Virus record (IMG/VR): IMGVR_UViG_3300033145_000798
Location: 1 to 26,958 of that record
Length of the DNA: 26,958 bases
Strand: one strand, 5' to 3'
Source of the DNA: a virus
The notes under the pieces are model-generated. The model saw nothing but the letters and a program-made list of their open reading frames with translations, was not told the DNA's origin and did no database searches. A program made the position numbers and the translations under genes. Shown piece after piece: positions 1 to 23,950 of this stretch. Each line of letters opens with the position of its first letter. The stretch's first letter is position 1.

Positions 1-537
1 GAGAGTAAGATAACGCCTAATTCTGCTGCCAAGTTTATCAAGAAAATTAAGAAGATGGGTCATTACTCTGTTCTTGAACATGCTTCAGCGAGCTTTGGAT
101 TTGTATGTGATAGGGGTGTGACTCACGAAATGGTTAGACATCGTCTAGCGGCATATAGTCAAGAGAGCACGCGCTATTGCAATTATGGCAAGAATAAGTT
201 TGACGGCCAAGTTAGATTTATTGAGCCTCCGCTACAATCTGAAGATGGGGCAATAGTTTGGAAAACCGCATGTGAGCAGGCAGAAGCCGCTTATTTGATG
301 TTGCTTCAAATTGGCGAGTTGCCACAAGTTGCTAGGTCAGTTTTGCCGAACTGCCTTAAAGCCGAAATAGTAATGACGTGTAACTTTCGAGAATGGTTGC
401 ATGTTTTTTCTCTTCGCACAGACGAGAATCCTAGAGCCCACCCGCAAATTCAAGAGATAATGAATCCGGCGCAAGATATATTGGCGGCTCATTGTCCAGT
501 AGTGTTTTGTAGCAATATTCACAAAGATATAATTTAG
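1..537 (+). CDS. thyX: Flavin-dependent thymidylate synthase ThyX (5' end cut by window edge)
   Basis: Makes dTMP from dUMP using FAD, NADPH and methylene-tetrahydrofolate. The ThyX signature RHR-x7-S is visible (RHRLAAYSQES, about nt 136-168), preceded by a GHYSVLEHASASF block typical of the family, and followed by the 'LPNCLKAEIVMTCNFREWLHVF' type region (R/N-rich substrate-binding part). The reading frame is open from base 1 (ESKITPNSAAKF...), so the first ATG at 55 is internal and the true start lies to the left of the window. About 178 codons are present; complete ThyX proteins are usually 210-250 residues, so only some 40-60 N-terminal residues are missing. With dut and tdk further on, it forms a phage thymidylate supply set. 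Confidence 0.95.
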   Translation, partial: ESKITPNSAAKFIKKIKKMGHYSVLEHASASFGFVCDRGVTHEMVRHRLAAYSQESTRYCNYGKNKFDGQVRFIEPPLQSEDGAIVWKTACEQAEAAYLMLLQIGELPQVARSVLPNCLKAEIVMTCNFREWLHVFSLRTDENPRAHPQIQEIMNPAQDILAAHCPVVFCSNIHKDII

Positions 538-573
538 CACAATCGGGACCTAGAAGGATAGATTAGGAGAAAC

Positions 574-771
574 ATGACTTTAGAAGAAGCTATTAGATGG
601 GCGAAGAATCATTGTGCAATAATTGATTTTTTCCCAACAGAGCGTACTATTACTTGTAGTAAGATTACAGTAAGAATGAAATCTTATGTGAGTTGGACTC
701 CGGATTCTTTTATCTCTGCTATAGAAGAGATAAAACGTAGAACGGAATATAACGAACAGGTGGATATATAA
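574..771 (+). CDS. Small hypothetical protein (65 aa)
   Basis: I do not recognise this protein. It is 65 residues, soluble-looking, with no membrane segment or cysteine pair motif. The start is supported by a good Shine-Dalgarno sequence (aggaga, about 7 nt upstream of ATG 574). Its TAA stop shares a base with the ATG of the following nuclease gene (TAATG), so the two are probably translationally coupled. It may be an accessory to the nuclease, but this rests on position only. Confidence 0.65.
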   Translation: MTLEEAIRWAKNHCAIIDFFPTERTITCSKITVRMKSYVSWTPDSFISAIEEIKRRTEYNEQVDI

Positions 772-1859
772 TGGATATGTCAGCGGCAAGTGCCTCAAGA
801 ATTAAGACAAATAAGCAATGTGAGATGAAGTATTTTCTTGAGTACCATCTTAAAATTCCAGAAACAAAAAAGGGTAATATTTACACACATAAGGGCTCGG
901 CGGTTCATGATGCGCTTGAGCAGTGGGTAAATGCAGTCATTGGAGAAGAAGAGAATGCCGAAATTGATTACGTAAAAACGCTACGTGATTATTACGTAAA
1001 GCATCGTCTTTGGCTCCAGGATATTCGTAAGCCTGATAAAGGAGGAGACCCTTATCCACAAACTAAGAACTGTTCGCTTTGTTCGCATATGTCAAAAGCT
1101 GGTGCATGTTCTATTCTATCTGTTCCGGCACTACTTGTTGATGGCTGCCCACGCATAAATTATGAGCAAGACCTTGGCCTAATTAGAGGTGCAATAAAGT
1201 CGCAAGATTATCCAGTCTTGGCGCTTAATGAAGATGGTGAGCTTAAGAAGAAGGTAATTGGCGTAGAGCTTAAGTTCGATGGAGAAGTAGATGGGGTGCC
1301 GCTACGGGCTTTTCTTGACCTAGTAGTTGAGGAGGACTCCGATACAATTGAAATCATTGATTATAAAACCGGAAACTCTATGAGTTATGCAGCAGCATGC
1401 AAGGACCCACAAGTTCTACTGTATGGAAAGATTATTTCTCAGATGTTTCCTCAGTATAAGTACGTTCTAGTTACGCTATGGTTTTTGAAGAAAAATCCAG
1501 TTACAGTTCCGATTACAGCCGAGATGAACGAACTAACAGTTAAAAGTCTCAAGAAGCACTGGAATCAAATCACAGAAAACGTAAGTCCTTACAGGGGCTA
1601 TAGTTGGCTTTGTAAGTATTGCGTGGGGTACGACGTGTGTGGAATGATTCGAAATAAATTCGTCGTTGACGGACAATTCCGTCTGCCTACTATCTCATGT
1701 AGGATGGCAGACTCAGAGACTCAATGCTGGGGAAGCCTGCGTGTGGAAAATCCAGACGAAGTCACGATGGCGGATGTTGATAAAATGACCTACGCTTGCA
1801 GGGGGCACAGTGGAAAAAGTGGTAAATACGTATCCGAGATACCTCTTCAGGCTGACTAA
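771..1859 (+). CDS. Cas4/RecB-like PD-(D/E)XK exonuclease with Fe-S cysteine signature
   Basis: Predicted DNA nuclease of the PD-(D/E)XK superfamily, Cas4/AddB-RecB type, probably acting in phage recombination or DNA end processing. Visible motifs: GSAVH (His46), Asp183 in FLDLV, and IIDYKTG (Asp197, Lys199) as the D-[D/E]xK core. One cysteine near the N-terminus (C17) and a C-terminal C-x2-C-x5-C (C281, C284, C290) match the four-cysteine arrangement that binds a 4Fe-4S cluster in Cas4 and AddB. A second cysteine group lies between residues 101 and 126 (C101, C104, C113, C126) and is not part of the usual pattern. About 70 residues follow the last Fe-S cysteine, with no family I recognise. 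The protein is 362 aa, longer than typical Cas4 (about 200). No CRISPR genes are nearby, so I read it as a phage recombination nuclease. Confidence 0.85.
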   Translation: MDMSAASASRIKTNKQCEMKYFLEYHLKIPETKKGNIYTHKGSAVHDALEQWVNAVIGEEENAEIDYVKTLRDYYVKHRLWLQDIRKPDKGGDPYPQTKNCSLCSHMSKAGACSILSVPALLVDGCPRINYEQDLGLIRGAIKSQDYPVLALNEDGELKKKVIGVELKFDGEVDGVPLRAFLDLVVEEDSDTIEIIDYKTGNSMSYAAACKDPQVLLYGKIISQMFPQYKYVLVTLWFLKKNPVTVPITAEMNELTVKSLKKHWNQITENVSPYRGYSWLCKYCVGYDVCGMIRNKFVVDGQFRLPTISCRMADSETQCWGSLRVENPDEVTMADVDKMTYACRGHSGKSGKYVSEIPLQAD

Positions 1860-2040
1860 TGAATGGCAGAACGTCTGGGTGTATGCAAATGCAGCCAGGC
1901 GAATACTTAATGGATATAAGTTAATTGGTGTAACTTATGGTAATTGTTTAGAACCTCCAGCGTGGCACACAGAGCCACTATATTTAGATGACTCAGAAAT
2001 AGAAGTGAGATTTAAGGTGTTGAAAAATGAAAAAGGTTGA
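1810..2040 (+). CDS. Small hypothetical protein (76 aa)
   Basis: Unrecognised protein with a GTG start at 1810, preceded by a purine-rich aggggg that can serve as Shine-Dalgarno. It overlaps the nuclease gene by 50 nt and the polymerase gene by 14 nt. No ATG occurs early in this frame. The long double overlap makes the exact start uncertain, but the frame fills the gap between two real genes. The sequence is moderately aromatic (WQNVWVYANAARRI) with no catalytic motif I recognise. Confidence 0.55.
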   Translation: MEKVVNTYPRYLFRLTNEWQNVWVYANAARRILNGYKLIGVTYGNCLEPPAWHTEPLYLDDSEIEVRFKVLKNEKG

Positions 2041-5000
2041 AATGGTTCATTTGCATGTTCATAGTACTTATAGTGAACTTGATGCAATAGCCAAAATTCC
2101 TCAGTTAGTAAAGCGAGCAATTGAATTTGGTCATAAGGCAATCACTTTAACAGACCATGGTACCATAGCCGGTGTTCCTGAATTTTATGCGGAATGCAAA
2201 AGGCAAGGTATTAAGTCAATACTTGGTTCAGAGTTTTATATGGTTGCTGATGCAGAGAAATCTCGTGCCGAGAAGAAAAGGCTTGCGCACCACCTAGTCC
2301 TACTGGCGATGAATGATGAGGGCTGGACTAATATTAAGAAGCTAACAACAAAGGCGAATGAGAAGTTTTACTACGTTCCTCGTATTGACTATAAGGACCT
2401 AGTTGCGCATTCAGATGGAATTATCTGTATGACTGCGTGCCTCAAGGGGATTGTTCCTTATTATCTTATGGAAAAAGACTTCGATGAGGCAACGAAGAAC
2501 CTTATTGTATTGCATGGAATCTTTGGTAATAGACTCTATCTAGAAATTCAAGATGGAGGGCTGGATGTTCAGGTTGATATAAACCAGGCTTTGCGCAGAA
2601 TGGCAGCAAATATGCAACTAAAGTGTGTTGCTACTGTAGACTCCCATTACATCGACAAAGATGATGTAGAGGCCCATGAGGGACTTTGGGCAATTAGGAC
2701 TGGTCACACATTTGATGTTCCTATTGGATATGGCAAGGGACGGGGCTTTCGTCCATATTATTCTACTAGAGAATACTGGTTGAAGGATGCATGTCACATT
2801 CTTGGCGAACCATTAACTACTGAGAATGACGAACAAAGAATGTCTACGGTTCTACAAGGTGAGCTGGAAGCAACTCTTGAGGTTGTCGACAGAATTGGAG
2901 ATGTGAAGTTTGAGAAAAAAATACATTTGCCAAAATATGGATTCATTCCAGACATTAGGTCCAATTCATTTCAGTATCTAGAGAAACTAGTAGAGGATGG
3001 ATATGAAACTCTATTCGGACATAGACTTGAAGATGCGGAGGAAATATACAAGGCTCGCATCGCCAAGGAAATGGCGGATATCAAAGATGCGAACCTCGCA
3101 GATTATTTTCTCATTGTTTGGGATATTGTTAGTTGGGCTCGCAGCGAGGGGATTCCGGTGGGACCAGGTAGAGGCTGTCTTAGCGATAGTTCTTATGTAT
3201 GGACTTTAGAAGGGTATAAAAGAATAAAAGATATTCTGGTTAATTATGACAAAGTAGTAAATGCAAATGGGAAATTAGTTAAAGTTGTTGGCAAATCAGA
3301 ATTTGATGTAAATGAGGATATACTAGAAATCAAATCATATTATGATTTTTGGTCATCTTCAGAATTTACAAAGGACCATAAGATATTAATTAAACGTGGA
3401 GAAAAAAAGAATAAGCAACAACAGACTTTATTTCCTTCGAATAAAGATAATAAGTGGAGCAGGGCAGACGAAGTAAAAATTGGAGATTATGTTTGTATTC
3501 CTAAAATGAATTATTTTGAACGAGGTACGGTTTCATATTGGAAAAATCATCCTGATGAGTTATGTGATGTTGATGGAAATATTATTATTGAGAAGACACG
3601 AATTAATAAGTTTTACTACGGGTCTATAAGACATATGTCAGAAATGACTGGCTTAACTAGAGGTTGTTTAAAAAACATTGTTGATAATGGAACTAAAAAA
3701 TGTAGGCCAGATACTATTAGAAAACTAGAGGCTTATATTGTTGAAAAACTTGGAATGCGAACTATTGCAAATTGGCGTAGGTATGTGAAATACAATAAGT
3801 ATAAATATTCAAATATTCCTAAGCAGATATCTATAGATAGAGATTTTGCCAAATTTATTGGATTATGGATTGGAGATGGCTGTTATAAGTTCGAAACTGG
3901 TGTTTCAATATTTTTGGGACCAAATGATACAGATGCTCTTAATTTCTTAAGAAAATATCTCGTTAGTCTTGGTATAAGATTTCGAGAATATTCTCCTAAG
4001 AATAAGCAGTCTTTAATAGTTTTTGATATTCAAAGCAGAATTATTTACAGAATGTTTTATACTCTATTTGGAAAAGTGCATAGTTCTACCAAGTTTATCC
4101 CAGATTCATTTACATATTCTAGAGAATTAGCGGAAGGGATTTTGGTCGGTCTTATTTGGTCCGATGGTTCACTATCTGGCGGGAGAGTTAGTTTTGATAC
4201 TACTAGTAACAAATTAGCCTTTGATATAAGAACATTGGCCTATTATTTAGATACTCCTAGCTCAGTAAATAAAAGAGTTTACAAAAATTCGACTAATAAA
4301 GACTCTTATAAATTAAGGTTTGCTAGAAGTGAAACAATTTGTAGACTTTTTGGAATTAATGCTAAAAAACAGAATTATTTCTTTGAAGATGACAAATATA
4401 TGTATTGTGCAGTTCGAGAAATCAATAAAAAAGAATTCTCTGGCAAGGTATATGATTTAGAAGTGGAAGGAAATAGTCCATCGTTTTTATCTGGAGGATA
4501 TATTGTTCATAATTCTGCTGCTGGTTCTTTGGTGTCTTATTGTTTAACCATAACGGAGATTGAACCTATTAAATTCGGCTTAATCTGGGAGAGGTTCTAC
4601 AATGCTGGCCGCAAGGGCTCTCTTGCTGATATTGACATAGACTTTTCAAAGAGGAAACGTGGCAGGGTAATCAAATACATCCGTGAGCGATTTGGTAGCG
4701 ATAGAGTTGCACAAATGGTGACATTCAATCGCTTAATGCCAAAGGCTGTTTTGAAAGATGTGGCAAAAATTCTTGGTAAACGAGGAATGAGTTTTGATGA
4801 CGCCAATGTAATGACACGTCTTATTGGACTTAAGGCAAAGACTATAGAAAAGGCACTAGAGGCATCTGAGAGATTACAGGAGTATGAGAAGAAAAATCCA
4901 AAGCTATTTGAGCTTGCGAAGAAGCTCCAGGGCTGTCAGAAGAGTCGTGGCAAACATGCCGCTGGTTTAATTATTTCTGATGAGCCATTTAGTGAAGGAG

Positions 5001-5200
5001 GAGTTCCTTTAGGTTGGGATACGAAAGAAAAGACACAAATCACCGCATGGGATGGTGAAACTCTTGATAATATGGGATTTTTGAAAGTAGATATTTTGGG
5101 ATTAAAAACAATGGATGTCTTAGGAGACATGGAAGAGGAAATCAATGGAGCTGCCAATCGTAAAAGTAAAACTAGAGGGCGGAAGACTACCAAAGTATAA
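2027..5200 (+). CDS. dnaE: DNA polymerase III alpha subunit, N-terminal half (PHP + palm), interrupted by intein 1
   Basis: First part of a split replicative polymerase. Residues 1-270 are a PHP domain with metal-binding residues that appear intact by pattern (H8, H10, D43, H44, E69, H88/89, C138, D205, H207), so PHP-type proofreading is possible. The polymerase core has the GPGRG/SAAGS motif, interrupted after GPGRG by a 446-residue intein. It also has DIDIDF with the catalytic aspartates (D870, D872 in precursor numbering) and KVDILGLKT with the third catalytic Asp (D1022). Without the intein the product is about 611 aa. It ends shortly after the third Asp, where E. coli DnaE passes from palm to fingers. 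The remaining domains are encoded at 7221-9689. The last 19 codons are the start of dut read in another frame, which looks like an insertion scar. ATG 2027 overlaps the preceding gene by 14 nt. Confidence 0.93.
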   Translation: MKKVEMVHLHVHSTYSELDAIAKIPQLVKRAIEFGHKAITLTDHGTIAGVPEFYAECKRQGIKSILGSEFYMVADAEKSRAEKKRLAHHLVLLAMNDEGWTNIKKLTTKANEKFYYVPRIDYKDLVAHSDGIICMTACLKGIVPYYLMEKDFDEATKNLIVLHGIFGNRLYLEIQDGGLDVQVDINQALRRMAANMQLKCVATVDSHYIDKDDVEAHEGLWAIRTGHTFDVPIGYGKGRGFRPYYSTREYWLKDACHILGEPLTTENDEQRMSTVLQGELEATLEVVDRIGDVKFEKKIHLPKYGFIPDIRSNSFQYLEKLVEDGYETLFGHRLEDAEEIYKARIAKEMADIKDANLADYFLIVWDIVSWARSEGIPVGPGRGCLSDSSYVWTLEGYKRIKDILVNYDKVVNANGKLVKVVGKSEFDVNEDILEIKSYYDFWSSSEFTKDHKILIKRGEKKNKQQQTLFPSNKDNKWSRADEVKIGDYVCIPKMNYFERGTVSYWKNHPDELCDVDGNIIIEKTRINKFYYGSIRHMSEMTGLTRGCLKNIVDNGTKKCRPDTIRKLEAYIVEKLGMRTIANWRRYVKYNKYKYSNIPKQISIDRDFAKFIGLWIGDGCYKFETGVSIFLGPNDTDALNFLRKYLVSLGIRFREYSPKNKQSLIVFDIQSRIIYRMFYTLFGKVHSSTKFIPDSFTYSRELAEGILVGLIWSDGSLSGGRVSFDTTSNKLAFDIRTLAYYLDTPSSVNKRVYKNSTNKDSYKLRFARSETICRLFGINAKKQNYFFEDDKYMYCAVREINKKEFSGKVYDLEVEGNSPSFLSGGYIVHNSAAGSLVSYCLTITEIEPIKFGLIWERFYNAGRKGSLADIDIDFSKRKRGRVIKYIRERFGSDRVAQMVTFNRLMPKAVLKDVAKILGKRGMSFDDANVMTRLIGLKAKTIEKALEASERLQEYEKKNPKLFELAKKLQGCQKSRGKHAAGLIISDEPFSEGGVPLGWDTKEKTQITAWDGETLDNMGFLKVDILGLKTMDVLGDMEEEINGAANRKSKTRGRKTTKV
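3176..4513 (+). mobile_element. Intein 1 in DnaE-N with LAGLIDADG homing endonuclease motifs
   Basis: In-frame intein of 446 residues inserted between GPGRG and SAAGS of DnaE. Splicing residues: Cys1 (tgt at 3176), block B TKDH, C-terminal His-Asn (cat-aat ending at 4513), and Ser as first C-extein residue. Two LAGLIDADG-type motifs are visible: FIGLWIGDG (3854-3880) and ILVGLIWSDG (4139-4168). Between block B and the first endonuclease motif lies a helix-turn-helix-like stretch (MSEMTGLTRGCLKNIVDNG) that could aid DNA recognition. The segment is visibly more AT-rich than the flanking extein. It interrupts an essential nucleotide-binding motif, so the polymerase should be inactive until it is spliced. 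Confidence 0.93.
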
Positions 5201-5579
5201 GCATGAGGGAGACGCCGGAGCAGATGTTTGCATGGCCGGGCCCGGTTATTATACATTAAAGCCAGGAGAAACAAGAAAGTTTGGCCTGGGTTTTCGCATG
5301 GCAATACTACCTGGCTGGGAAGTCCAAGTTCGCTCTAGGAGTGGGTTGGCCAGCAAGGGTATTGTTGTAGCGAATTCTCCAGGAACGATAGATTCCGGTT
5401 ATCGTGGTCCATGCATGGTGTTATTGCATAATCAAAGCGATAAACCTTATGCTGTAGCCGCTGGAGACAGGATTGCACAGTTTGTTTTAAAGAAGGCTCC
5501 ACAGGCAATGTATTGTACTGTAGATGACCTTGATGAAACTCTTCGTGGTGATGGAGGGTTCGGAAGCACAGGTGTCTAG
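5145..5579 (+). CDS. dut: dUTP diphosphatase (dUTPase)
   Basis: Trimeric-type dUTPase that converts dUTP to dUMP, keeping uracil out of DNA and feeding ThyX. All five family motifs are present in order: DAGADV, RSRSGLASKG, GTIDSGYRG, GDRIAQFV and the C-terminal RGDGGFGSTG. The length of 144 aa is normal for the family. The ATG at 5145 lies inside the 3' end of the dnaE N-half gene in a different frame (56 nt overlap). The overlapping dnaE tail is not DnaE-like, which suggests the dut cassette was inserted into dnaE. Confidence 0.97.
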   Translation: MELPIVKVKLEGGRLPKYKHEGDAGADVCMAGPGYYTLKPGETRKFGLGFRMAILPGWEVQVRSRSGLASKGIVVANSPGTIDSGYRGPCMVLLHNQSDKPYAVAAGDRIAQFVLKKAPQAMYCTVDDLDETLRGDGGFGSTGV

Positions 5580-5788
5580 TGAATCTTGATTTTAATTGTG
5601 GAGAATGTAATCAAAAGTATCCATTAGTTATTGGTTCTGGTTTTCCGCTTGTCTATGTAGCTAAGAAGGTCCATGATTCTATGGATGATTGTTGTAAACA
5701 TTTGCATCGTAAATGGGCGGCGAGACGACATGATGAATGGTATAATGGTAGAATATTTGAAAATAATCCTAATTTCATTTGGAGGTAA
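5579..5788 (+). CDS. Small CxxC-containing hypothetical protein (69 aa)
   Basis: Unrecognised 69-residue protein with a GTG start that shares its first base with the dut stop codon (TAGTG). It contains CGEC near the N-terminus and a CCKHLH segment in the middle; these could together bind a metal such as zinc. The C-terminal end is rich in Trp, Asn and Arg. The ribosome binding site is weak, so translation may depend on coupling to dut. Confidence 0.5.
   Translation: MNLDFNCGECNQKYPLVIGSGFPLVYVAKKVHDSMDDCCKHLHRKWAARRHDEWYNGRIFENNPNFIWR
5781..5785 (+). promoter_or_regulatory. Shine-Dalgarno deciding the start of the next gene
   Basis: GGAGG located 5 nt before ATG 5791. It decides for that ATG over the in-frame TTG at 5779, which overlaps the ribosome binding site itself. 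Confidence 0.8.
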
Positions 5789-5790
5789 AT

Positions 5791-6273
5791 ATGGCGAACT
5801 ATTCATTTAGAAAAGACTTGGCACTATCCCAAGAAGCAGTAGAATTAGTAATGAATCACCTTATAGATAATGATATTTCGTGTCACGAACTTGAAGGAAA
5901 AGAAGAACAAAAATATGGGGACATCAGGTCATATCCTAATGGTCTTGAGGAGCCTGTGGATATAGAGGTAAAGTTTGATATTATGGCTGAGAAAACTGGC
6001 AATCTTTGTTTCGAACTTTCTAATGGCAAAAAACTCACTGGGATGTTAGGAACAAAGGCAAGCGAAGTTTACTATGTTGTACCCGAGGGCTCTTTACGTA
6101 AAATCTTCAAGTTTCGACTAGACAAACTAAGAGACTATATTCTCGAGCCAGCCAATGTTATTATGAAGAAGGGTGGAGATAGTAGGAAGTTCCATCTTGC
6201 TCTGGTTAAGGCCGACAAGATTATCGAGGATGATGTAGCCTTCGATATAGTGGTGGTGGACAATGAAGATTGA
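5791..6273 (+). CDS. PD-(D/E)XK nuclease-like protein (160 aa)
   Basis: Probable small nuclease or nuclease-fold protein. It has KYGDI (Asp44), then VDIEVK (Glu59, Lys61), giving D-x14-E-x-K, the core spacing of the PD-(D/E)XK fold. This is followed by TGNLCFEL and GTKASEVYYVV, a pattern (TGN-x-FE ... TKA-x-x-YYV) I associate with small phage PD-(D/E)XK endonucleases. The start is ATG 5791, placed by a strong GGAGG. A longer version from TTG 5779 is unlikely. It sits in the cassette between the two dnaE halves. The role could be DNA repair, junction processing or host DNA degradation; I cannot tell which. Confidence 0.6.
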   Translation: MANYSFRKDLALSQEAVELVMNHLIDNDISCHELEGKEEQKYGDIRSYPNGLEEPVDIEVKFDIMAEKTGNLCFELSNGKKLTGMLGTKASEVYYVVPEGSLRKIFKFRLDKLRDYILEPANVIMKKGGDSRKFHLALVKADKIIEDDVAFDIVVVDNED

Positions 6274-6448
6274 AATGAAAAACAGAGATGTCTACAAATT
6301 GGTTCGAGTAGATATGGATGACCTTAAACAGGGGGATTTGTTTTGTTTGAATGATAGGGGTGATGGACACGAAAAAATGCAGCACATTTATCGTTGTATG
6401 AAAAATCCTGTTGTATGCGTAGAGGTGGAGTTCTTTAATTATGCCTAA
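6263..6448 (+). CDS. Small hypothetical protein (61 aa)
   Basis: Unrecognised 61-residue protein that starts 11 nt inside the preceding gene and ends 8 nt inside the following one. ATG 6275 is an alternative start, giving 57 residues. It contains a 'DDLKQGDLFCLND' stretch that resembles small beta-barrel phage proteins, but there is no firm family assignment. Confidence 0.5.
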   Translation: MKIEMKNRDVYKLVRVDMDDLKQGDLFCLNDRGDGHEKMQHIYRCMKNPVVCVEVEFFNYA

Positions 6449-6656
6449 TTATGTATACAAATGTAAAAAGTGTAAAGCAAAATATAACTTGTCATTACCA
6501 ATGGGCTATAATCCAACATTACAATATGCATGTCAAGATGATAATTGCAATGGGCTCTGTAGTAGAATAATAGCGCCAGGGGCTACTTTTAGTATTCCAA
6601 AAGTTAGGGCAGCGGCCTGGTTTAAGAAAACATATGGCAAAGAGCTAGGAGAATAG
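6441..6656 (+). CDS. FmdB-like zinc ribbon protein (71 aa)
   Basis: Small zinc-ribbon protein. The N-terminus MPNYVYKCKKCKAKY matches the start of FmdB-type putative regulators (MPxYxYxCxxC), and later cysteines (C-x4-C, then C) could complete the metal site. The C-terminal part (KVRAAAWFKKTYGKELGE) is basic and helical. The role is unknown. Proteins of this family occur widely in bacteria and phages, often beside nucleotide or DNA metabolism genes. It lies just upstream of tdk. Confidence 0.65.
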   Translation: MPNYVYKCKKCKAKYNLSLPMGYNPTLQYACQDDNCNGLCSRIIAPGATFSIPKVRAAAWFKKTYGKELGE

Positions 6657-6657
6657 T

Positions 6658-7224
6658 ATGTTAACTGTTATTAATGGGCCAATGTTTGCCGGTAAGACTT
6701 CTAGGCTAATTTCGTTGGCTTTTGCTAATGTTATTGCTGGTAAAAATGTCGTTGGATTTAAGCCATCAAATGATACGAGACATAGTAAGTCTAATGGTCT
6801 TATTATTACGCACGACAAACATCAGTTTCCAGCACATATATTGAATAAGGATGCACCAGATAGATGTTTTGATGTTATTTTCAAAATTACGCCACGCCCA
6901 GATGTTATCATCTTTGACGAAGCACAGTTCTTTGATGTAAAGAAATTTGAAACTTTGATAGAAAGAATGATATATGCGTGGGGCTACGAGGTTATTTGCG
7001 CTGGTTTGTCACAAGACTCTGAAGGACGTATATTTGGCCCAATGCCATATCTCCTAGCAGTAGCGGATAATATAATAAATCTTAAGGCCGTATGCGCCGA
7101 ATGTAAGACACTTCATGCTGCCACTAGGACATTTAGAAAAGATGGAAGTACCGAGCAGGTAGCCGTTGGTGGTGCAGAATTGTATGAACCAAGGTGTTTC
7201 GGATGTTGGGAGGAAGATAAATGA
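6658..7224 (+). CDS. tdk: Thymidine kinase (type II)
   Basis: Phosphorylates thymidine to dTMP with ATP (salvage). Features of the type II family: Walker A GPMFAGKT (residues 7-14), DEAQFF with the catalytic Glu88, and the zinc-binding pairs C146/C149 and C180/C183. The lasso/thymidine-binding region is VAVGGAELYEPRC. The length of 188 aa is normal. An AGGAGA sequence precedes ATG 6658, and the TGA stop overlaps the ATG of the second dnaE gene (ATGA). Together with thyX and dut it gives both de novo and salvage routes to dTTP. Confidence 0.97.
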   Translation: MLTVINGPMFAGKTSRLISLAFANVIAGKNVVGFKPSNDTRHSKSNGLIITHDKHQFPAHILNKDAPDRCFDVIFKITPRPDVIIFDEAQFFDVKKFETLIERMIYAWGYEVICAGLSQDSEGRIFGPMPYLLAVADNIINLKAVCAECKTLHAATRTFRKDGSTEQVAVGGAELYEPRCFGCWEEDK

Positions 7225-9689
7225 AAACTAATGAAGCAACAGTTAGGGCTATTGCTAATTATGTAAAAGTTGAGCCAGTAGAAGGTATGACACCGGAGTC
7301 TGTTTTAAGAGCTAGAAAAATAATGGCTTTGAAAGTTAAGAAAACAGAATTAGATTTTGCTGATATTCCACTTGATGATGGTCCTACCTGGGACCTAATA
7401 GGTACGGGGTATACGAGAGGAGTTTTTCAGCTTGAGGGAACCCTTGGGAAGAGATATGCTAAGGAGATAAAGCCCAGAAATATAGAGGAGCTTAGTGACG
7501 TTGTGTCACTTATCAGACCTGGGTGTCTTGAAGCACAATTTAGAGAAAAGCCAGATAAGCCTGGGGAGTTTTCTTCTATCACCAACACCTACATCAAGAT
7601 TAAGAATGGAGAATGGGAGCCAGAATATATTCATCCAGTACTTGAGGATATTTTTAAGGATACCAATAGTGTTCCTGTTTATCAGGAACAAATCATGCGC
7701 ATTTGCACAGATTTTGCCGGATTCACATTGAAAGAAGCTGATGTAGCTAGAAAGGCTGTGGGTAAGAAAAAAGAAGATGTGATGGCTATAGTAAAGGAAA
7801 AATTCCTTGCCGGTGCTGCAGCCAATGGCCATAATGCTGATATTGCCGATACTATCTTTGGATGGATATCAAAATTTAGTGGCTACGGATTTAATAAGTG
7901 CGCGGGTGGTAATACTCTACTTAATAGAGGTATGGTTAATCAGCATTCTGATGGATTATATACCATAGGTCATTTATATAAACTTGTTAATGATAGAAAA
8001 TATGCAGTAAAACATAAACAGATTTCTTTACGTAAAAAACTTAGACGTGTTGGTTATGGGAATTGTATGGCTGTATGTGCTGATGGACGTATTCGTCCTA
8101 TGCCAATTAAGACTATCCATTTTAATGGAAAGAAAAGGTTAGTTAGAGTAACTGATAATGGTGGTCGTGGTATTACATGTACTATTGACCATAAATTTAT
8201 GATTCCAGATGGAACAATGAAGTCTATTGAAGAAATTGGTGTTGGTGGTAAGGTAGTTTGTCATATTGATTGTTATGATGATGAATATATTTATGATTAC
8301 TCTGTTCATAAAAACAAGAAACGTAAACCTGGACAAGGTATGAGTAATTTTTCTGGTGGAAAAGCTGGTAATTTTATTGATGGAAACTGGTCTGCCTTTA
8401 AAAGAATAAAAGACCTTAATCTAAATATTGACTATTGCCAGACTTGTTTTAAGAAGCCAAAAAGATTAGAGTGGCACCATATTGATGGAAATAGGTCTAA
8501 TAATGTTGAAGATAATCTAATTAAATTATGTGTTTCTTGTCATAAAAAAGAAGATTATAAACTTGGTAGAAACAAGAGATTTGATAAGGGACATAAGACT
8601 GGTGTTGCGACAATTATAAGTATTGAGGAATTTACTGAAGAATATGATACTTATGATGTTGAAATGGATACCCCAGAACATAATTGGATTGCCGATGGTT
8701 TTGTCGTGTCTAATTCTCACGGCGTATCATATGCAATGATTGGTTACAAGACCGCATATGCAAAGTGTCACTATCCACTACATTTTTTCAAGGCTATGCT
8801 AACGAATTCTGACAGTAAACAAGATAGGCTTGACGAGATTCAGGGACTTGTACATGAAGCAAGACTATTCAATATTATTGTGCAACCTCCATGTTTAAAG
8901 AAACTTAACCACAACTTTGATATTGTTGATGATAAAACCATTGCATTTGGTCTTGGTCATATAAAGGGTGTTGGTAAGAGTGCGTTGAAGGTGTTGGTTA
9001 AAATTGCTGGCGCTACAGGGGACCATGATTTTTTGGCTAAAGCCTTTGGCGATGACACTAAGGTAAACAAAGGAGTAGTTGTTGCACTGATTAAATCTGG
9101 TGCGTTAGACTATATAACCTCTCATCGTGTAAAACTGTTATCGTGGTATAAAGTTTTCGGAATATTGACGAAGCGTGAACGCGAATTTATGTTCGCTCAT
9201 CTAGCTGCAGGGTCTACTTTAAACGAAGCCCTTAATGACCTTTTGGATTCGAAAGTTCCAAACAAGTCAAGAAAACCAAGAATTAATGAGGCAATTCAGG
9301 AGATTGCTCGAGAGCTTGGTGGAAATCCAAAGAAAATGTGTATAGCGTGGGAGAAATACTATCTTGGTATTCCGCTATCTGGTAGCTTAGTAGATTTGCA
9401 TTATAACCCAAGAGTTAATATAAAATTGAAAAATATGGGTAGATTACAGAATAAGACCGATGGATGCATTGGTGTTGTAATTGAAAAAATTCACAAAATC
9501 AAGGACAAAAACCATAATGAGATGTGTTTTCTCACTGTATCTGATGATACTTATATGGTTGATTCGATAGTTGTGTTTTCTAGTATCTATAATCGCGTTG
9601 GTTGGATTATTGAAGAAGGCAAGCCTGTGTTAATAACCGGAAAGAAGGACCGGGATAGTTTTTTGGTTAGAGGTATTTACCACCTTTAA
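7221..9689 (+). CDS. dnaE: DNA polymerase III alpha subunit, C-terminal half (fingers to OB), interrupted by intein 2
   Basis: Second part of the split DnaE. After about 50 residues not obviously DnaE-like, it picks up at ADIPLDDGPTW, then GVFQLEG, LIRPG and VYQEQIMRI, the DnaE fingers sequence directly downstream of the third catalytic Asp in an ordinary enzyme. SGYGFNK is followed by a 272-residue intein (precursor residues 227-498), and the extein resumes with SHGVSYAMIGYKTAY. Further on are a helix-hairpin-helix (GLGHIKGVGKSAL) and a C-terminal OB-fold-like region (DGCIGVVIEKI... to the end). The spliced product is about 550 aa. No split-intein sequences are seen at its N-terminus, so the halves probably act as two separate polypeptides that assemble non-covalently. 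The start overlaps the tdk stop (ATGA). Confidence 0.92.
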   Translation: MKTNEATVRAIANYVKVEPVEGMTPESVLRARKIMALKVKKTELDFADIPLDDGPTWDLIGTGYTRGVFQLEGTLGKRYAKEIKPRNIEELSDVVSLIRPGCLEAQFREKPDKPGEFSSITNTYIKIKNGEWEPEYIHPVLEDIFKDTNSVPVYQEQIMRICTDFAGFTLKEADVARKAVGKKKEDVMAIVKEKFLAGAAANGHNADIADTIFGWISKFSGYGFNKCAGGNTLLNRGMVNQHSDGLYTIGHLYKLVNDRKYAVKHKQISLRKKLRRVGYGNCMAVCADGRIRPMPIKTIHFNGKKRLVRVTDNGGRGITCTIDHKFMIPDGTMKSIEEIGVGGKVVCHIDCYDDEYIYDYSVHKNKKRKPGQGMSNFSGGKAGNFIDGNWSAFKRIKDLNLNIDYCQTCFKKPKRLEWHHIDGNRSNNVEDNLIKLCVSCHKKEDYKLGRNKRFDKGHKTGVATIISIEEFTEEYDTYDVEMDTPEHNWIADGFVVSNSHGVSYAMIGYKTAYAKCHYPLHFFKAMLTNSDSKQDRLDEIQGLVHEARLFNIIVQPPCLKKLNHNFDIVDDKTIAFGLGHIKGVGKSALKVLVKIAGATGDHDFLAKAFGDDTKVNKGVVVALIKSGALDYITSHRVKLLSWYKVFGILTKREREFMFAHLAAGSTLNEALNDLLDSKVPNKSRKPRINEAIQEIARELGGNPKKMCIAWEKYYLGIPLSGSLVDLHYNPRVNIKLKNMGRLQNKTDGCIGVVIEKIHKIKDKNHNEMCFLTVSDDTYMVDSIVVFSSIYNRVGWIIEEGKPVLITGKKDRDSFLVRGIYHL
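7899..8714 (+). mobile_element. Intein 2 in DnaE-C with HNH homing endonuclease
   Basis: In-frame intein of 272 residues inserted between GYGFNK and SHGVSYA of DnaE. Splicing residues: Cys1 (tgc at 7899), block B TIDHKF, C-terminal Asn (aat at 8712) and Ser as first C-extein residue. The penultimate residue is Ser (GFVVSN), not the usual His. An HNH nuclease module lies at about 8436-8543: CQTC, WHHIDGNRSNN, then LCVSCH, that is two CxxC pairs around an HH...N core. The segment is AT-rich relative to the exteins. The FNK/SH site lies three residues downstream of the cyanobacterial split DnaE intein site. Confidence 0.92.
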
Positions 9690-9696
9690 TTTGGAC

Positions 9697-9724
9697 TTTA
9701 CTTTGAAATTTAACGGCCTATAGT
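9697..9724 (+). promoter_or_regulatory. Possible sigma-70-type promoter for ssb
   Basis: TTTACT (9697-9702, 4/6 match to the -35 consensus), a 16 bp spacer, then TATAGT (9719-9724, 5/6 match to -10). It lies in the largest non-coding gap of the window, just upstream of ssb. The match is by eye only, and AT-rich DNA gives chance hits. Confidence 0.35.
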
Positions 9725-9735
9725 CAAATCACACA

Positions 9736-9751
9736 GAACCATAGTTGGTTC
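9736..9751 (+). promoter_or_regulatory. Inverted repeat in the ssb leader
   Basis: Perfect 6 bp inverted repeat GAACCA / TGGTTC around a TAGT loop, 9 nt before the ssb Shine-Dalgarno. In RNA it would form a small hairpin; in DNA it could be an operator half-site pair. It may serve control of ssb expression. Confidence 0.4.
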
Positions 9752-9760
9752 AACTTGTAA

Positions 9761-9765
9761 GGAGA
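9761..9765 (+). promoter_or_regulatory. Shine-Dalgarno deciding the ssb start
   Basis: GGAGA (within AAGGAGAAG) stands 6 nt before ATG 9772. It supports that start over the in-frame TTG at 9745, which would place the ribosome binding site inside the coding region. Confidence 0.8.
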
Positions 9766-9771
9766 AGTGTA

Positions 9772-10200
9772 ATGTTTTACCTTAATGAAATTCGGTTTCT
9801 AGGGCGTTCAGTCAAGGACGCAGAATTGAAAAATGTTGGAGAATCTCGTGTAGCTACGTTTAGACTTGTTTCTAATAGGAGAATCAAGAAGCGTGATGGC
9901 ACCTATGATGAAAAAGCCACCTATATTGACTGTGAGGTTTGGAATCAAAGAGCTGATTATGCATCTTCGTATGTCAAGAAGGGTACTCCGGTTTTGGTCA
10001 GAGGCCAACTAGAGACTGATGAGTGGACTTCTAAGGAAGGCCAAAAAAGAAGTAAGCTGAAGATTTATGCCAGTGAAATTCAGGCAGAGCGTCCACGTCA
10101 GGATAAACCTGTAGAAGACGCTGACCAGCAGGGTAGTCAGACTCAGTCAGCACCGGCATCAACTCCAGCAGCTACAGAATCTCCTGGCCTACCGTTCTGA
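9772..10200 (+). CDS. ssb: Single-stranded DNA-binding protein
   Basis: Bacterial-type SSB that coats single-stranded DNA during replication and recombination. Residues 1 to about 105 form the OB fold, with the recognisable blocks FLGRSVKDAEL, ATFRLVSNRR, YIDCEVWNQRADYASSYVKKGTPVLVRGQL and the WTSKEGQKRSKLKIYASEI strand. A low-complexity Gln/Ser/Pro/Ala tail ends in GLPF, which resembles the hydrophobic tip (IPF) used to recruit partners, though the acidic residues are placed further upstream (VEDAD). The ATG at 9772 is chosen by its Shine-Dalgarno. The gene has its own possible promoter and leader hairpin and is followed by a stem-loop, so it may be a separately regulated transcript. Confidence 0.96.
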   Translation: MFYLNEIRFLGRSVKDAELKNVGESRVATFRLVSNRRIKKRDGTYDEKATYIDCEVWNQRADYASSYVKKGTPVLVRGQLETDEWTSKEGQKRSKLKIYASEIQAERPRQDKPVEDADQQGSQTQSAPASTPAATESPGLPF

Positions 10201-10209
10201 GAAACAGCT

Positions 10210-10242
10210 AGAAGTAGGGGTAGCTTCGGCTGCCCCTCTTCT
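10210..10242 (+). terminator. Stem-loop with UUCG tetraloop after ssb (probable terminator)
   Basis: AGAAG-T-AGGGGTAGC, TTCG loop, GCTGCCCCT-CTTCT. The arms pair over 14 positions with one G-U pair and one bulged T. It begins 10 nt after the ssb stop. The tract after it is T-containing but not a clean T-run, so termination may be partial, or the structure may protect the mRNA 3' end. Confidence 0.6.
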
Positions 10243-10252
10243 ACTAAATATT

Positions 10253-10615
10253 ATGAACCATGAGGATATTATCAATGTGGCCATTAGACACATTCCTGAA
10301 GAATTTAGAGATGATGCCAGGCAAGCTGGTTATATCGGATTACTTAGTGGTCTTAAAAATAAAGATGCAGTAAGAAGTAATTTGAGAGGATATTTGTATA
10401 AGTGCATAACTAATGAGATGATTCGTGAAATGGCCAAACTTTATAGACCATTTGCATTAAAATCTAAAATATTCAATTTACTACTTAAATACAAAAAACT
10501 AAAAGGGCTCGGTAAGGAAAAACTTCTTGGCTGCGATAAAACCACTATTGCAGAACTTGAGGAGTTGTTAAGAATTAGGCAATGGAGTTACGATAAGCAT
10601 GACAAAATCTATTAA
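10253..10615 (+). CDS. Sigma-70 region 2-like small protein (120 aa)
   Basis: Possible phage sigma factor or sigma-like transcription regulator. Residues about 4-62 follow the sigma region 2 pattern: a helix, then FRDDARQAGYIGLLSGL (compare the usual 'eDLxQeGxiGLxxA'), then LRGYLYKCITNEMIREM. The C-terminal half is basic with a possible helical region (TTIAELEELLRI) but no clear region 4 helix-turn-helix. At 120 aa it is shorter than complete sigma factors. No Shine-Dalgarno is visible before ATG 10253, which lies only 11 nt after the preceding stem-loop, so expression may be unusual. It heads the glycosyltransferase operon and overlaps the next gene by 17 nt. Confidence 0.5.
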   Translation: MNHEDIINVAIRHIPEEFRDDARQAGYIGLLSGLKNKDAVRSNLRGYLYKCITNEMIREMAKLYRPFALKSKIFNLLLKYKKLKGLGKEKLLGCDKTTIAELEELLRIRQWSYDKHDKIY

Positions 10616-12320
10616 GAAGAGAATTCTTATATCTGGAGAAGCTAGTTTTCTTTCAACTGGATTTGCTAATTTTAATAGTGAACTTTTAAAAAGATTACAT
10701 AAAACTGGGAAATATATATTAGCAGAGGTTGGTTCGTCTGCTCCTCCAAACTGTCCTGAAAGCAAACAGTTACCCTGGTCATTTTATGGAATAATGCCAA
10801 TTAATGAGCATGAAAAAAAGATTTATGATAGTCATCCTCAAAATCCTTTTGGAAAATACAAAATTGACGCAATATTAGCGGATTTCCAACCTGATATTGT
10901 TTTTGACCCTAGAGACCCATGGATGATGGAGCATTTGCAGGCTTCAAGATTTCGTAGTAATTACAAGCTGTTTTTAATGCCCACTGTTGATTCCGCCCCA
11001 CAAAAGAAGCAGTGGATAAAGGGTCTTTTCAAGAAGGCAGATGTGGTAACCACATATAGTCGCTACGGAAAACGAGTTTTAGAAGCCGAAGGTGTAAAAG
11101 TTTTTGACATCACATCTCCAGGTGTTGACCTAAATATTTGGCGCCCATTACCTCATATAGAAATTCGTGATAAATTCATCTTAAAAAAGACGCTGCTTAT
11201 CTTTGGAACAGTGATGAGGAACCAGAAGCGCAAGCTCTATCCTGACCTGTTTGAGGCATATGTGCGTCTTCGTAAGAAGTGGATTACACCACAAAAAATC
11301 GCTAAAATTAAAAAGAAAGTAATTGCCGGCCGAAAATTGACGGAAGATGAAAGAAAAGCGATGAGAATTCAGCACAGTGCTCTGTTTTGCCATACAAGTT
11401 GGCCAGATATGGGTTGGAATATTCCTCACCTCGTAGAGCGCTTTAATTTGCAAAGACATATACTCTTCACCTATAAGTGTGATTCATGTGGGTATGTTTA
11501 TGTTCATTGGTTTAGCCCATCTACCGCACAAGGAATTACAACCTGTCGTAAGTGTGGAAAGGCGGCTGCTCATATGCCAGGAACCCACAGTGGAGTATCA
11601 GAAAAAGACCTTATTGAGTTGTTTAATCTTATCGATATTTATGTTCATCCAGCTATTTGTGAAGGTTGGGGCCTTCCGATTATGGAGTCAAAGGCTTGTG
11701 GTGTTGCAGGATTGTATCAGAATTATTCTGCCATGGAAGACCATGTAGAAAATGGTGGTGGTTTGCCTATTAAGGTTCAAAGACTATATCATGAAGCAGA
11801 AACAGAGGCAATCAGGTCTATGCCTGACATTTCTGATATGATGAAAAAGATGGAACTACTTGCTTTTAATGAGAATAAGCGTAATAAACTTGCAAAACAA
11901 GCAAGAGCTTGTGCTGAAAGGATGCATTCTTTGGATTTAACCGCCAATAAGATTGAATGTATTTTGGACGAATTGGAAATTTTAAACAGGGATTCAACTT
12001 GGGATAAATTACCTAGGTTTGAAACAGTTACGGCAGAAAGACCAGGTAACAATATATCAGACGAGACATTTGTTAGGTGGTGTTATACAAATATTCTTGC
12101 ACGAGAACCAGAAGATAAAGGCTTTACTGACTGGATGGCGAGTTTAAAGAAGGGAACTTCTAGAGATAATGTTGAGGCGTTTTTTCGTGACCAGGTGGAT
12201 GGCAGAAATAAATTTGAAGAAGCAAGGTGGAAGAAGAGTTTGGCAATTAGAGGTATAGAAATAGATATTTCACCAGCAGGTATGGCTATTTCGAATATTA
12301 TGCCAGGGATGTTAATATGA
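10599..12320 (+). CDS. GT-B (GT4-like) glycosyltransferase with zinc ribbon insert and DUF4214-like C-terminus
   Basis: Predicted retaining glycosyltransferase transferring a sugar from a nucleotide donor. The N-terminal Rossmann domain includes GFANFNSELLKRL. The donor domain starts near FGTVMRNQKRK (about 202-212) and ends with CEGWGLPIMESKACG, where Glu355 and Glu363 form the GT4 E-x7-E motif. Inserted in the donor domain is a four-cysteine zinc ribbon (C294, C297, C316, C319), unusual for GT4 enzymes. Residues about 487-545 (FVRWCYTNILAREPEDKGFTDW...FF) resemble DUF4214, a helical module found at the ends of secreted and glycan-related proteins. At 573 aa it is longer than a plain GT4 (about 370). 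The stop overlaps the next gene's ATG. Confidence 0.85.
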   Translation: MTKSIKKRILISGEASFLSTGFANFNSELLKRLHKTGKYILAEVGSSAPPNCPESKQLPWSFYGIMPINEHEKKIYDSHPQNPFGKYKIDAILADFQPDIVFDPRDPWMMEHLQASRFRSNYKLFLMPTVDSAPQKKQWIKGLFKKADVVTTYSRYGKRVLEAEGVKVFDITSPGVDLNIWRPLPHIEIRDKFILKKTLLIFGTVMRNQKRKLYPDLFEAYVRLRKKWITPQKIAKIKKKVIAGRKLTEDERKAMRIQHSALFCHTSWPDMGWNIPHLVERFNLQRHILFTYKCDSCGYVYVHWFSPSTAQGITTCRKCGKAAAHMPGTHSGVSEKDLIELFNLIDIYVHPAICEGWGLPIMESKACGVAGLYQNYSAMEDHVENGGGLPIKVQRLYHEAETEAIRSMPDISDMMKKMELLAFNENKRNKLAKQARACAERMHSLDLTANKIECILDELEILNRDSTWDKLPRFETVTAERPGNNISDETFVRWCYTNILAREPEDKGFTDWMASLKKGTSRDNVEAFFRDQVDGRNKFEEARWKKSLAIRGIEIDISPAGMAISNIMPGMLI

Positions 12321-13465
12321 TGCCAAAAGTTTTATATGTTGCCCCACTGAATGATTTTAGTGGATATGCAGAAGTTGCTAGAAATTATGTTAGGGCTTTA
12401 GATTTGGCAGGAGTGAATCTTGTAACAAGAGACCTCAAGTATGATAGTGGAGAATACAAGAAGAGCGAGCGAGAGAAGGAGTTGGCTACAAGGGATATAC
12501 AAGATGTAGACATCATTATTCAGCAAACTACGCCAAATGAAACAGAATACAAGGATGGAGTATTCAATATAAATGCATTTTGTTGGGAGACTGATAGGAT
12601 TCCAAAACAATGGGCCGACATGCTAAATAAGATGGACCTCATTTTGGTTCCTATCGAACAAAATAGAATTGCCGCACAAAAAAGTGGAGTTGTAAAGCCG
12701 ATAGTTGTTGTTCCATATTCCTTTAATATTGAACGATATAAAAGAAAGATTGATTCACTTGTAATTCCTGGAGCTGATAACAGTTTTAAATTTTTGTCAA
12801 TTTTGCAGTATTCCAAAAAGAAAGGAATGGACCCTCTTCTTAAGGCATATTTTACGGAGTTTACAAGAGAAGACCCAGTCATCCTTATACTAAAAGTATA
12901 TATTGGACCTAACGATGGGATTCAGGAGCGTAACCGAATTTTATCTATAATCAATGCAATGAAGGGAATATTACGTTTAAACAATTATCCGCCAATTAAG
13001 CTGATTCATGAAGTAATGTCTCATGACCAGATAGAGAAGTTATATGTATCATCGGATTGTTATATTTTGCCATCTAGAGGTGAGGGCTGGGGTGTGCCTC
13101 ACTTTGACGCGCTAGGCTGGGGACTTCCTACTATTGCAACAAAGGGAACTGGTCCAGAGGCATTTATAACTGATGAGTGTGGTTGGTTAGTTGATTCTCA
13201 TCTAAGTCCAGTCTGTGACATGCCACATCCACACAATTTTATGTATACAGGAAAAGACAATTGGCGAGAGCCCCACGTTTGTGATTTAAAAACATGTATG
13301 AGAAATGCATTCACATTCTGGAGAAAGAAAGACGCTTTTGACTTATGGTCTATCCGCCAAAAGGCAGCAAGGGAAAGAGTTAAAGACTTTAGTAATGAAG
13401 TTATCGGTCCGCAATTAAGAGATGTGATTATGAAATACTACACACAATGGAAGAAAGTGAACTAA
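12317..13465 (+). CDS. GT-B (GT4-like) glycosyltransferase
   Basis: Predicted GT4-type glycosyltransferase of 382 aa. The N-terminal glycine-rich loop (NDFSGYAEVARNYVRAL) is followed by the donor domain starting at FKFLSILQYSKKKGMDPLL (about 157-176) and by ILPSRGEGWGVPHFDALGWGLP. The E-x7-E motif appears as E256-x7-D264, a conservative Glu-to-Asp change in the second acidic residue. CNQ-type sugar specificity cannot be read from sequence. It overlaps both neighbours: ATGATG at the 5' end, and the endonuclease gene start at its stop. Confidence 0.87.
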   Translation: MMPKVLYVAPLNDFSGYAEVARNYVRALDLAGVNLVTRDLKYDSGEYKKSEREKELATRDIQDVDIIIQQTTPNETEYKDGVFNINAFCWETDRIPKQWADMLNKMDLILVPIEQNRIAAQKSGVVKPIVVVPYSFNIERYKRKIDSLVIPGADNSFKFLSILQYSKKKGMDPLLKAYFTEFTREDPVILILKVYIGPNDGIQERNRILSIINAMKGILRLNNYPPIKLIHEVMSHDQIEKLYVSSDCYILPSRGEGWGVPHFDALGWGLPTIATKGTGPEAFITDECGWLVDSHLSPVCDMPHPHNFMYTGKDNWREPHVCDLKTCMRNAFTFWRKKDAFDLWSIRQKAARERVKDFSNEVIGPQLRDVIMKYYTQWKKVN

Positions 13466-14064
13466 TGTTGTTGCCATCCAATAAATGTGGTATTTATTAT
13501 TTAAAGTGTAATTCGAATAAAAAATTATATATAGGAAGTTCTATTAAAATTAGAAAACGTTTACTTCGACATATTGGAGAATTGCAAACAAATAGACATT
13601 GCAATCCTATTCTACAAAATATATGGAATAAATATGGAGAAAATAGTTTTTGTTGTGGTGTTTTAGAAATAGTTAAAGACAGAAACATTTTGAATTTATG
13701 TGAAAAGTTCTGGATTGACAATAATATTGACCGTGTAGTTAATATCATATTAGACCCACGAAATTTACAAGGCAAGAATAATCCATTTTTTGGCAAAATT
13801 CATACAGATGAGACTCGTAAGAAAATGTCTAATAATCATTGTAATTTTAATGGAATAAATAATCCGTTTAGTGGCAAAAGTCACAGTCCTAGTTCTTTGG
13901 CAAAAATGTCATTATCAAAAGGGAGTTTATCTCGTGATGATATTTTAAGAATCAGAATATTAGCAAAAACTAATACTATATCTAAAACAGCCGATATAGC
14001 TGGTATTAGTTATGAATTAGCCAGACTAATTGTAAGAGGAAAGTGTTATCAACATGTTCGTTAA
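13465..14064 (+). CDS. GIY-YIG homing endonuclease 1
   Basis: Free-standing homing endonuclease of about 199 aa. The GIY-YIG signature is CGIYYLKC ... KLYIGSS, followed by the conserved HRHIGEL / HCNPILQNIWNKYGENSF region and the catalytic-type Glu (CEKFWID). Two NUMOD3-type DNA-binding repeats follow (NPFFGKIHTDETRKKMS and NPFSGKSHSPSSLAKMS), then a C-terminal helix-turn-helix-like part (ISKTADIAGISYELARLIVRG). I chose ATG 13465, which overlaps the TAA of the preceding glycosyltransferase (TAATG); ATG 13447 is an in-frame alternative. The stop lies inside the start of the next glycosyltransferase gene. The sequence is strongly AT-rich compared with its neighbours. Confidence 0.93.
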   Translation: MLLPSNKCGIYYLKCNSNKKLYIGSSIKIRKRLLRHIGELQTNRHCNPILQNIWNKYGENSFCCGVLEIVKDRNILNLCEKFWIDNNIDRVVNIILDPRNLQGKNNPFFGKIHTDETRKKMSNNHCNFNGINNPFSGKSHSPSSLAKMSLSKGSLSRDDILRIRILAKTNTISKTADIAGISYELARLIVRGKCYQHVR

Positions 14065-15130: not shown

Positions 15131-15765
15131 TAAATTGTGGTATTTATATAATTAGAAATATAATAGATAATAAAGTTTATATAGGTAGTTCTAATAGAAT
15201 AAAGTCTAGAATTAGTTATCATAAGTATTGTCTTAAAATAAATAAGCATTGTAATCAACATTTACAAAATGCATGGAATAAGTATAGAGAAATTAGTTTT
15301 ATATTTGGTACAATTGAGCGATGTAATAAGTGTAATTTGTTAATTCGTGAAGAATTCTATATAGAGAAGTTTGAGTCTTGGAAAAGAAGTTGTGGATATA
15401 ATCTTCAAAGATGTCCATCAAGACCAGTAATGTCAGAGGAAACTAAAAGAAAAATATCTGAATATTGGAAGAATCATATACATCCATGTATAGGCAAAAA
15501 GCGCAGTTTAGAAATAAGAAAAAAAATTTCTGATGGATTACCAGATATGGGTGGTAAAAATAATAGTATGTATGGCAGAAGGCAAACTAAAGAATCTATT
15601 AGAAAAAATTGTTTATCAAATAGTGAATTTTCCAAGAGCGATATATTAGAAATTAGAGAATTGAGTAAAATAATGACTGCAAAAGAAATATCTATATTAA
15701 AGAATATGAAATATAAAAGGATATGGAGGATATTATCAAATAGAACCCATAAGGATATATTATGA
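15127..15765 (+). CDS. GIY-YIG homing endonuclease 2
   Basis: GIY-YIG homing endonuclease of 212 aa with a TTG start that overlaps the stop of the preceding glycosyltransferase (TTGA). Signature: CGIYIIRN ... KVYIGSS, then HCNQHLQNAWNKYREISF, closely similar to endonucleases 1 and 3. The catalytic-type Glu lies in REEFYIEKF. Middle NUMOD3-like segments (MSEETKRKISEYW, GKKRSLEIRKKISDG, MYGRRQTKESIRKN) and a C-terminal helix-turn-helix-like region (KEISILKNMKYKRIWRILSN) should contact DNA. Very AT-rich. Its stop overlaps the next start by 4 nt. Confidence 0.92.
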   Translation: MINCGIYIIRNIIDNKVYIGSSNRIKSRISYHKYCLKINKHCNQHLQNAWNKYREISFIFGTIERCNKCNLLIREEFYIEKFESWKRSCGYNLQRCPSRPVMSEETKRKISEYWKNHIHPCIGKKRSLEIRKKISDGLPDMGGKNNSMYGRRQTKESIRKNCLSNSEFSKSDILEIRELSKIMTAKEISILKNMKYKRIWRILSNRTHKDIL

Positions 15766-17228: not shown

Positions 17229-17229
17229 T

Positions 17230-20510: not shown

Positions 20511-20514
20511 GAAT

Positions 20515-22511: not shown

Positions 22512-22518
22512 GTATACC

Positions 22519-23948: not shown

Positions 23949-23950
23949 AA

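Follow-up and report, generated by a model that had tools for sequence, protein, structure and literature searches.

A phage family C DNA polymerase encoded by two genes cut at the palm/fingers linker

Introduction

Can a replicative DNA polymerase of the DnaE type be supplied as two separately encoded chains that are not ligated to each other? A single chain is usual, though not strictly defining, for DnaE, as cyanobacterial DnaE is also produced from two genes. In the virus record IMGVR_UViG_3300033145_000798 of IMG/VR, the parts of a family C DnaE are carried by two genes with six further genes between them. A preliminary description, drawn from the sequence alone, had read this locus as a polymerase split at the palm/fingers boundary. 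Here, we analyzed the entire record (26,958 bases; hereafter the window) together with related loci, which are designated by L numbers. The record is complete at this length and represents a virus fragment, that is, a piece of a phage genome; statements regarding whole genomes therefore rest on relatives. The viruses of the split-DnaE group are uncultured, and their hosts are bacteria.

Results and Discussion

Domain architecture of the two chains

Both open reading frames proved to be real and contained the Pfam domains previously attributed to them (Table 1). The N chain matched PHP, DNA_pol3_alpha (two stretches flanking an intein), and LAGLIDADG_3/Intein_splicing, and the C chain matched DNA_pol3_finger, HHH_6, Intein_splicing, and, weakly, OB. 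The resulting series of PHP, palm with three catalytic Asp residues, thumb, fingers, helix-hairpin-helix (HhH), and OB (the last under the gathering score) is the domain order of family C DnaE, distributed over two genes. DnaE was not encoded as a single polypeptide in the window, and the two parts were separate genes in all close relatives. As described earlier, all three catalytic Asp residues reside in the first gene, and this triad was invariant across 12 split N chains. All PHP ligand positions were present in the N chain (H8, H10, D19, H44, E69, H89, C134, D205, and H207) and invariant among close relatives; we take this nine-position set to mark the window PHP domain as active-type. Removal of the two cis-inteins left 611 + 550 = 1161 residues, exactly the total first proposed. 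The C chain has a Shine-Dalgarno sequence of its own (gggagg), and its start overlaps the last 4 bases of tdk (ATGA). The C chain of the relative L005, modelled alone, gave a confident fold with a predicted local distance difference test score (pLDDT) of 83.6 and matched Pol III alpha structures.

Table 1. Positions of DnaE-related and neighboring features in the window.
Feature	Position	Strand	Remarks
DnaE N chain: PHP, palm, and thumb	2027..5200	+	1057 aa; 611 aa without intein
PHP domain	2048..2554	+	PF02811, residues 8-176, E 4e-44
N-chain cis-intein with LAGLIDADG endonuclease	3176..4513	+	between palm GPGRG and SAAGS; Cys1, TKDH block B, His-Asn end, Ser+1
Catalytic Asp codons 1 and 2	4628..4636	+	ADIDIDF, residues 868 and 870; invariant in relatives
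Catalytic Asp codon 3	5090..5092	+	KVDILGLK, residue 1022; invariant in relatives
dut (dUTPase)	5145..5579	+	PF00692, E 5e-22; start overlaps N-chain end
Small CxxC protein	5579..5788	+	69 aa; no family found; not conserved in most relatives
PD-(D/E)XK-like protein	5791..6273	+	160 aa; D-x14-E-x-K motif; no Pfam match
Small protein	6263..6448	+	61 aa; no family found
FmdB-like Zn-ribbon protein	6441..6656	+	71 aa; PF09723, E 9e-4, under gathering score
tdk (thymidine kinase)	6658..7224	+	PF00265, E 4e-35
DnaE C chain: fingers, HhH, and OB	7221..9689	+	822 aa; 550 aa without intein
Fingers domain	7332..7829	+	PF17657, residues 38-203, E 8e-42
C-chain cis-intein with HNH motif	7899..8714	+	between GYGFNK and SHG; Cys1, TIDH block B, Asn end, Ser+1
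Helix-hairpin-helix	8874..9134	+	PF14579, E 2e-10
OB-fold-like C-terminal part	9489..9647	+	PF01336, E 4e-4, under gathering score; strands in L005 C-chain model
Single-strand DNA-binding protein (ssb)	9772..10200	+	just downstream of C chain; also downstream of C half in L065, L070, and L120

Position of the cut and absence of joining signals

Comparison with solved structures placed the end of the L005 N chain at residue 573 of Escherichia coli DnaE and the beginning of its C chain at residue 580, leaving only a linker of approximately six residues (E. coli 574-579) missing from the two halves, which confirms the split as first observed. The cut falls in a short variable loop leading from the last palm helix to the fingers, so that no conserved residue is lost. 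In a side-by-side alignment, N chains ended with LGLKTxDVLxDIExxING, C chains began at or before LDFxxIPLDD, and intact enzymes spanned the cut site with approximately 10 variable residues. The residues in excess at the break were unconserved: L065 had none at the end of its N chain and one at the start of its C chain, the window had 16 and approximately 44, and the other members had at most 16 and approximately 55.

An alternative is that a single chain is produced from the two parts by split-intein trans-splicing, by RNA trans- or cis-splicing over the intervening genes, or by translational bypass. In its favor, both halves carry inteins elsewhere in their sequence, the fractured cyanobacterial DnaE is joined by a split intein, and the N part of the far relative L010 is cut around an HNH gene with intein-like ends. 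At the present break, the residues are few and variable, too few for intein fragments, and no intein blocks were found there in the window or its relatives; no split intein is therefore present, in agreement with the initial reading. A scan of the window against Rfam returned nothing and hence no known intron RNA, and no joined reading frame was found across the break. The N half has a stop and the C half a start of its own, with dut overlapping the N-chain end and tdk the C-chain start, and the gene content between the halves differs by lineage. We consider joining into one chain very unlikely.

The C-half starts of L003, L008, L030, L031, L070, and L120 contained a short CGC motif (for example, MKFKCGCEF and MGKLIYNCGCQF), which was not seen in the fused enzymes printed in the alignment. 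This motif might contribute one half of a metal site, or it might be a remnant of the fission.

Distribution of the split

Viral contigs were scanned for both halves, followed by frame-by-frame classification of the loci. Both phages with the same split and phages with an intact dnaE, which the preliminary description had suggested looking for, were found. The same cut was present in a close clade including L003, L004, L005, L006, L007, L008, L028, L029, L030, and L031, as well as in L058 as far as its contig, which ends before the C half, extends. It was also found in three more distant phage lineages (L065, L070, and L120/L124), in the far relative L010, and in the complete genome of a cultured phage, Rossellomorea phage phiT1 (PV767480), in which parts of 573 and 469 aa, both annotated as "DNA polymerase III subunit alpha", are separated by one 49-aa open reading frame and contain no inteins. 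Most DnaEs are intact: dnaE was continuous in approximately 98 other phage loci (some of them duplicate records), and 78 of the 80 best bacterial loci were unbroken.

Such recurrence bears on whether the split merely reflects an error of assembly or sequencing. An apparent cut can arise in this way, as exemplified by L178, a contig of a bacterial metagenome-assembled genome in which overlapping frames produce the appearance of a split. The window locus is not an assembly error, because relatives and phiT1 are cut at the same linker. The cut, with genes in between, recurred in many contigs that are independent of one another as well as in phiT1, whose genome is complete, and we regard an artefact as practically negligible.

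A bacterial source of the split was considered and rejected: of the two exceptions among the bacterial loci, L178 looks like a frame error, and L145 is truncated by the contig start. DnaE of phage G is broken elsewhere, within the N part around the homing endonuclease gp330; an intron has been reported for phage G dnaE (PMC7824862). In L010 (positions 1-12334 of a 201-kb contig), DnaE extends over at least four open frames, three of which make up the palm/thumb part. An HNH gene and intein-like ends separate these three frames, and the C half lies approximately 8 kb downstream and carries a cis-intein.

Selection on both halves and the search for other polymerases

Both halves are under strong purifying selection. 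The ratio of nonsynonymous to synonymous substitution rates (dN/dS) of the N part was 0.037-0.052 between close relatives, and that of the C part was 0.051 (L005/L006; C-part pairs involving the window were saturated at synonymous sites); both lay below those of the cassette genes. Two long relatives, L004 (167 kb) and L005 (177 kb), each contained a single DnaE palm and a single fingers domain, and neither PolA nor PolB was found in 16 searched records (15 viral records, including L004 and L005, and phiT1).

These data bear on the possibility that the two halves are remnants or act independently of each other (the N chain as a PHP nuclease, for instance), with the phage relying on a polymerase of the host or on another one. 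In its favor, the functions of separate genes might diverge, and the PHP metal ligands are complete. Against this stand the conservation of all catalytic Asp residues, the strength of selection on both halves, the placement of the inteins at active-site motifs, and the failure to find another PolA, PolB, or DnaE in the long relatives. Inactive remnants beside an intact polymerase gene, the situation that had been named at the outset as contradicting a split enzyme, were thus not encountered, and we judge this explanation improbable.

Proposed assembly of a two-chain enzyme

The sequence features favor, with high probability, a DnaE consisting of two separate, non-covalently assembled proteins that form an obligate two-chain enzyme. 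The N chain would supply PHP, palm, and thumb with the Asp triad and the C chain fingers, HhH, and OB; the two would fold independently and then bind to each other as a DnaE-like enzyme, which is predicted to have polymerase activity. The two genes share a strand and belong to one series of overlapping genes, and their co-expression is probable. Each window chain would first have to excise its own cis-intein, so that a working enzyme would require two protein-splicing events and one assembly step.

In favor of this interpretation, N and C distances correlated within a nine-member clade (r 0.65, permutation p 0.002), a result also expected from shared ancestry alone. Several points weigh against it. 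Physical association of the N and C chains is inferred. The AlphaFold model of the N chain, based on a shallow alignment of six sequences, reached a pLDDT of only 54.6 and was not used. The completeness of L004 and L005 is not stated, and a polymerase may lie outside these contigs or belong to a family beyond those searched. Lastly, insertion as the cause of the cut, considered below, is deduced from present-day neighbors and is put forward as probable.

Number of origins

In a maximum-likelihood tree of 51 polymerases, 12 split members and the fused L064 formed one supported clade, and phiT1 was placed elsewhere among fused enzymes. A single group of all 13 split members was rejected (p-AU, the p-value of the approximately unbiased test, 0.0005), which shows that this linker was cut independently at least twice; the split of phiT1 is independent of that of the window clade. 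A tree grouping the 12 split members without L064 was not rejected (p-AU 0.163), and for this reason L064 is not claimed as a proven re-fusion. The CGC-containing start common to several C chains (window clade, L070, and L120) hints at one old fission among them. L010, whose branch is long and unplaced, is likely to represent a third independent origin.

We tentatively propose, without holding it to be the probable case, that the palm/fingers linker is a repeated natural breakpoint at which phages have converted the family C polymerase into an obligate heterodimer on at least two occasions (L010 being perhaps a third), with a possible re-fusion in L064 and with polymerase activity in the window gated by two splicing events and one assembly.

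Genes between the halves and a possible cause of the cut

The six genes between the halves correspond to the cassette first described, with firm Pfam matches for dut and tdk, but this cassette is not fixed among split relatives. Only the dut, PD-(D/E)XK-like, and FmdB-like genes were constant between the halves in the close clade, dut occurring in all close relatives with sequence there and tdk in all but L004; the genes for the 69-aa CxxC and 61-aa proteins were not general. The PD-(D/E)XK assignment was upheld by the invariance of D44, E59, and K61 in 11 homologues, nine of which matched phrog_13596 (function unknown; best E 1e-13), and a PDB search using the alignment gave no credible match. 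The FmdB assignment agrees with a Pfam match, albeit a weak one. Pfam provided no match for the CxxC, PD-(D/E)XK-like, and 61-aa proteins, and a search among relatives gave none for the CxxC protein. In L004, a tandem pair of dUTPase-like genes lies between the halves (8133-9232), of which the second appears diverged.

In L065, a PD-(D/E)XK-like homologue was the sole gene between the halves. L070 contained an HNH-looking gene (no Pfam match), a DnaQ-like exonuclease gene, and small genes, and L120 contained other genes. The window cassette need not be the cause of the split, given that the cut in L070 and L120 has the same position but encloses different genes. Homing endonuclease genes also occurred here: a GIY-YIG gene directly after the N half in L008 and a LAGLIDADG gene within the cassette in L003. 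The cut probably resulted from insertion of a foreign gene, either PD-(D/E)XK-like or encoding a homing endonuclease, into the sequence coding for the linker, and nucleotide-metabolism genes may have accumulated thereafter. Mobile or cargo genes would thus have entered the linker of a dnaE already situated within an older replication operon.

Cis-inteins and genomic neighborhood

The two inteins were gained or lost independently of the split. Both were absent from L005, L006, and L008, only the C-chain intein was present in L003 and L004, and the N part of L028 carried an insert at the place of the N-chain intein.

All strong genes of the window are located on the plus strand. A Cas4-like gene upstream and ssb downstream were kept in L065, L070, and L120, and Cas4-like and sigma-like genes also flanked the fused dnaE of L064. 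A long run of genes (10599-26345) for glycosyltransferase-like proteins, a radical SAM protein, an APS kinase, and a CmcI-like O-methyltransferase suggests glycan or surface modification. Three free-standing GIY-YIG/NUMOD3 homing endonuclease genes (13447-14064, 15127-15765, and 23295-23948) are located among glycosyltransferase and other genes, and a trypsin-like serine protease with hydrophobic stretches at its N- and C-terminal ends, unusual for a phage, is encoded at 20515-21390.

Comparison with known systems

Family C polymerases are conventionally described as having one catalytic chain, the intein-joined cyanobacterial case being the exception, and we found no full-length DnaE cut between palm and fingers in the open literature. 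If a conserved full-length DnaE does work as two chains, contact between palm and fingers would by itself suffice to keep a replicative polymerase assembled, polymerase engineering would gain a naturally occurring split site, and the locus would illustrate cleanly that an essential gene can accommodate the insertion of several genes. Gene-by-gene annotation makes such phages seem to own two partial polymerases.

Cyanobacterial DnaE is likewise encoded by two genes, whose products a split intein ligates at a conserved position within the C part; here, the break falls in the linker between palm and fingers, where no intein occurs. The cyanobacterial site is presumably a few residues from that of the C-chain cis-intein of the window. 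Two coding sequences are also annotated for DnaE of the actinophages Papyrusvirus Rope, Krampusvirus NarutoRun, and Terapinvirus Djokovic, with a small gene between them in Rope and Djokovic. The first of these sequences is of PHP size (approximately 310-345 aa), placing the cut before the palm, whereas the present cut follows it. DnaE of phiT1 is cut at the same linker as that of the window, with an independent origin, a 49-aa open reading frame in between, and no inteins.

Group 2.2 jumbo phages also distribute a family C polymerase over separate proteins, a split minimal Pol III alpha predicted to reconstitute the enzyme (Iyer et al., 2021, PMC7824862). That enzyme lacks other Pol III domains, is described as cut between its nucleoside triphosphate-binding and Mg/template-binding parts, is encoded by distant genes, and accompanies a family B polymerase. 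In contrast, the PHP-DnaE of the window is complete, its break lies between palm and fingers, and its two genes are near each other; it is not a minimal enzyme without PHP beside a family B polymerase, as PHP is present and no PolB was detected in the 15 viral records and phiT1.

In phage Aeh1, insertion of a mobile gene, the homing endonuclease gene mobE, splits the gene for the essential enzyme NrdA, and the split enzyme is fully active (PMC2988022); that case concerns another enzyme and a single endonuclease gene. A further parallel is split gene 43 (43A/43B) of Aeromonas phages 25 and 44RR, a two-chain phage replicative polymerase without a split intein. As in gp43A/gp43B, the replicative polymerase of the window is divided between two genes of the same orientation, and its catalytic residues are conserved. 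The Aeromonas break holds a mobile or untranslated element as a short insertion in a family B polymerase, whereas a multi-gene metabolic cassette interrupts a family C polymerase here. The gp43A and gp43B chains of Aeromonas phage 25 co-purify and exhibit polymerase activity (PMC2988022), and by analogy the two DnaE chains may associate in a similar manner.
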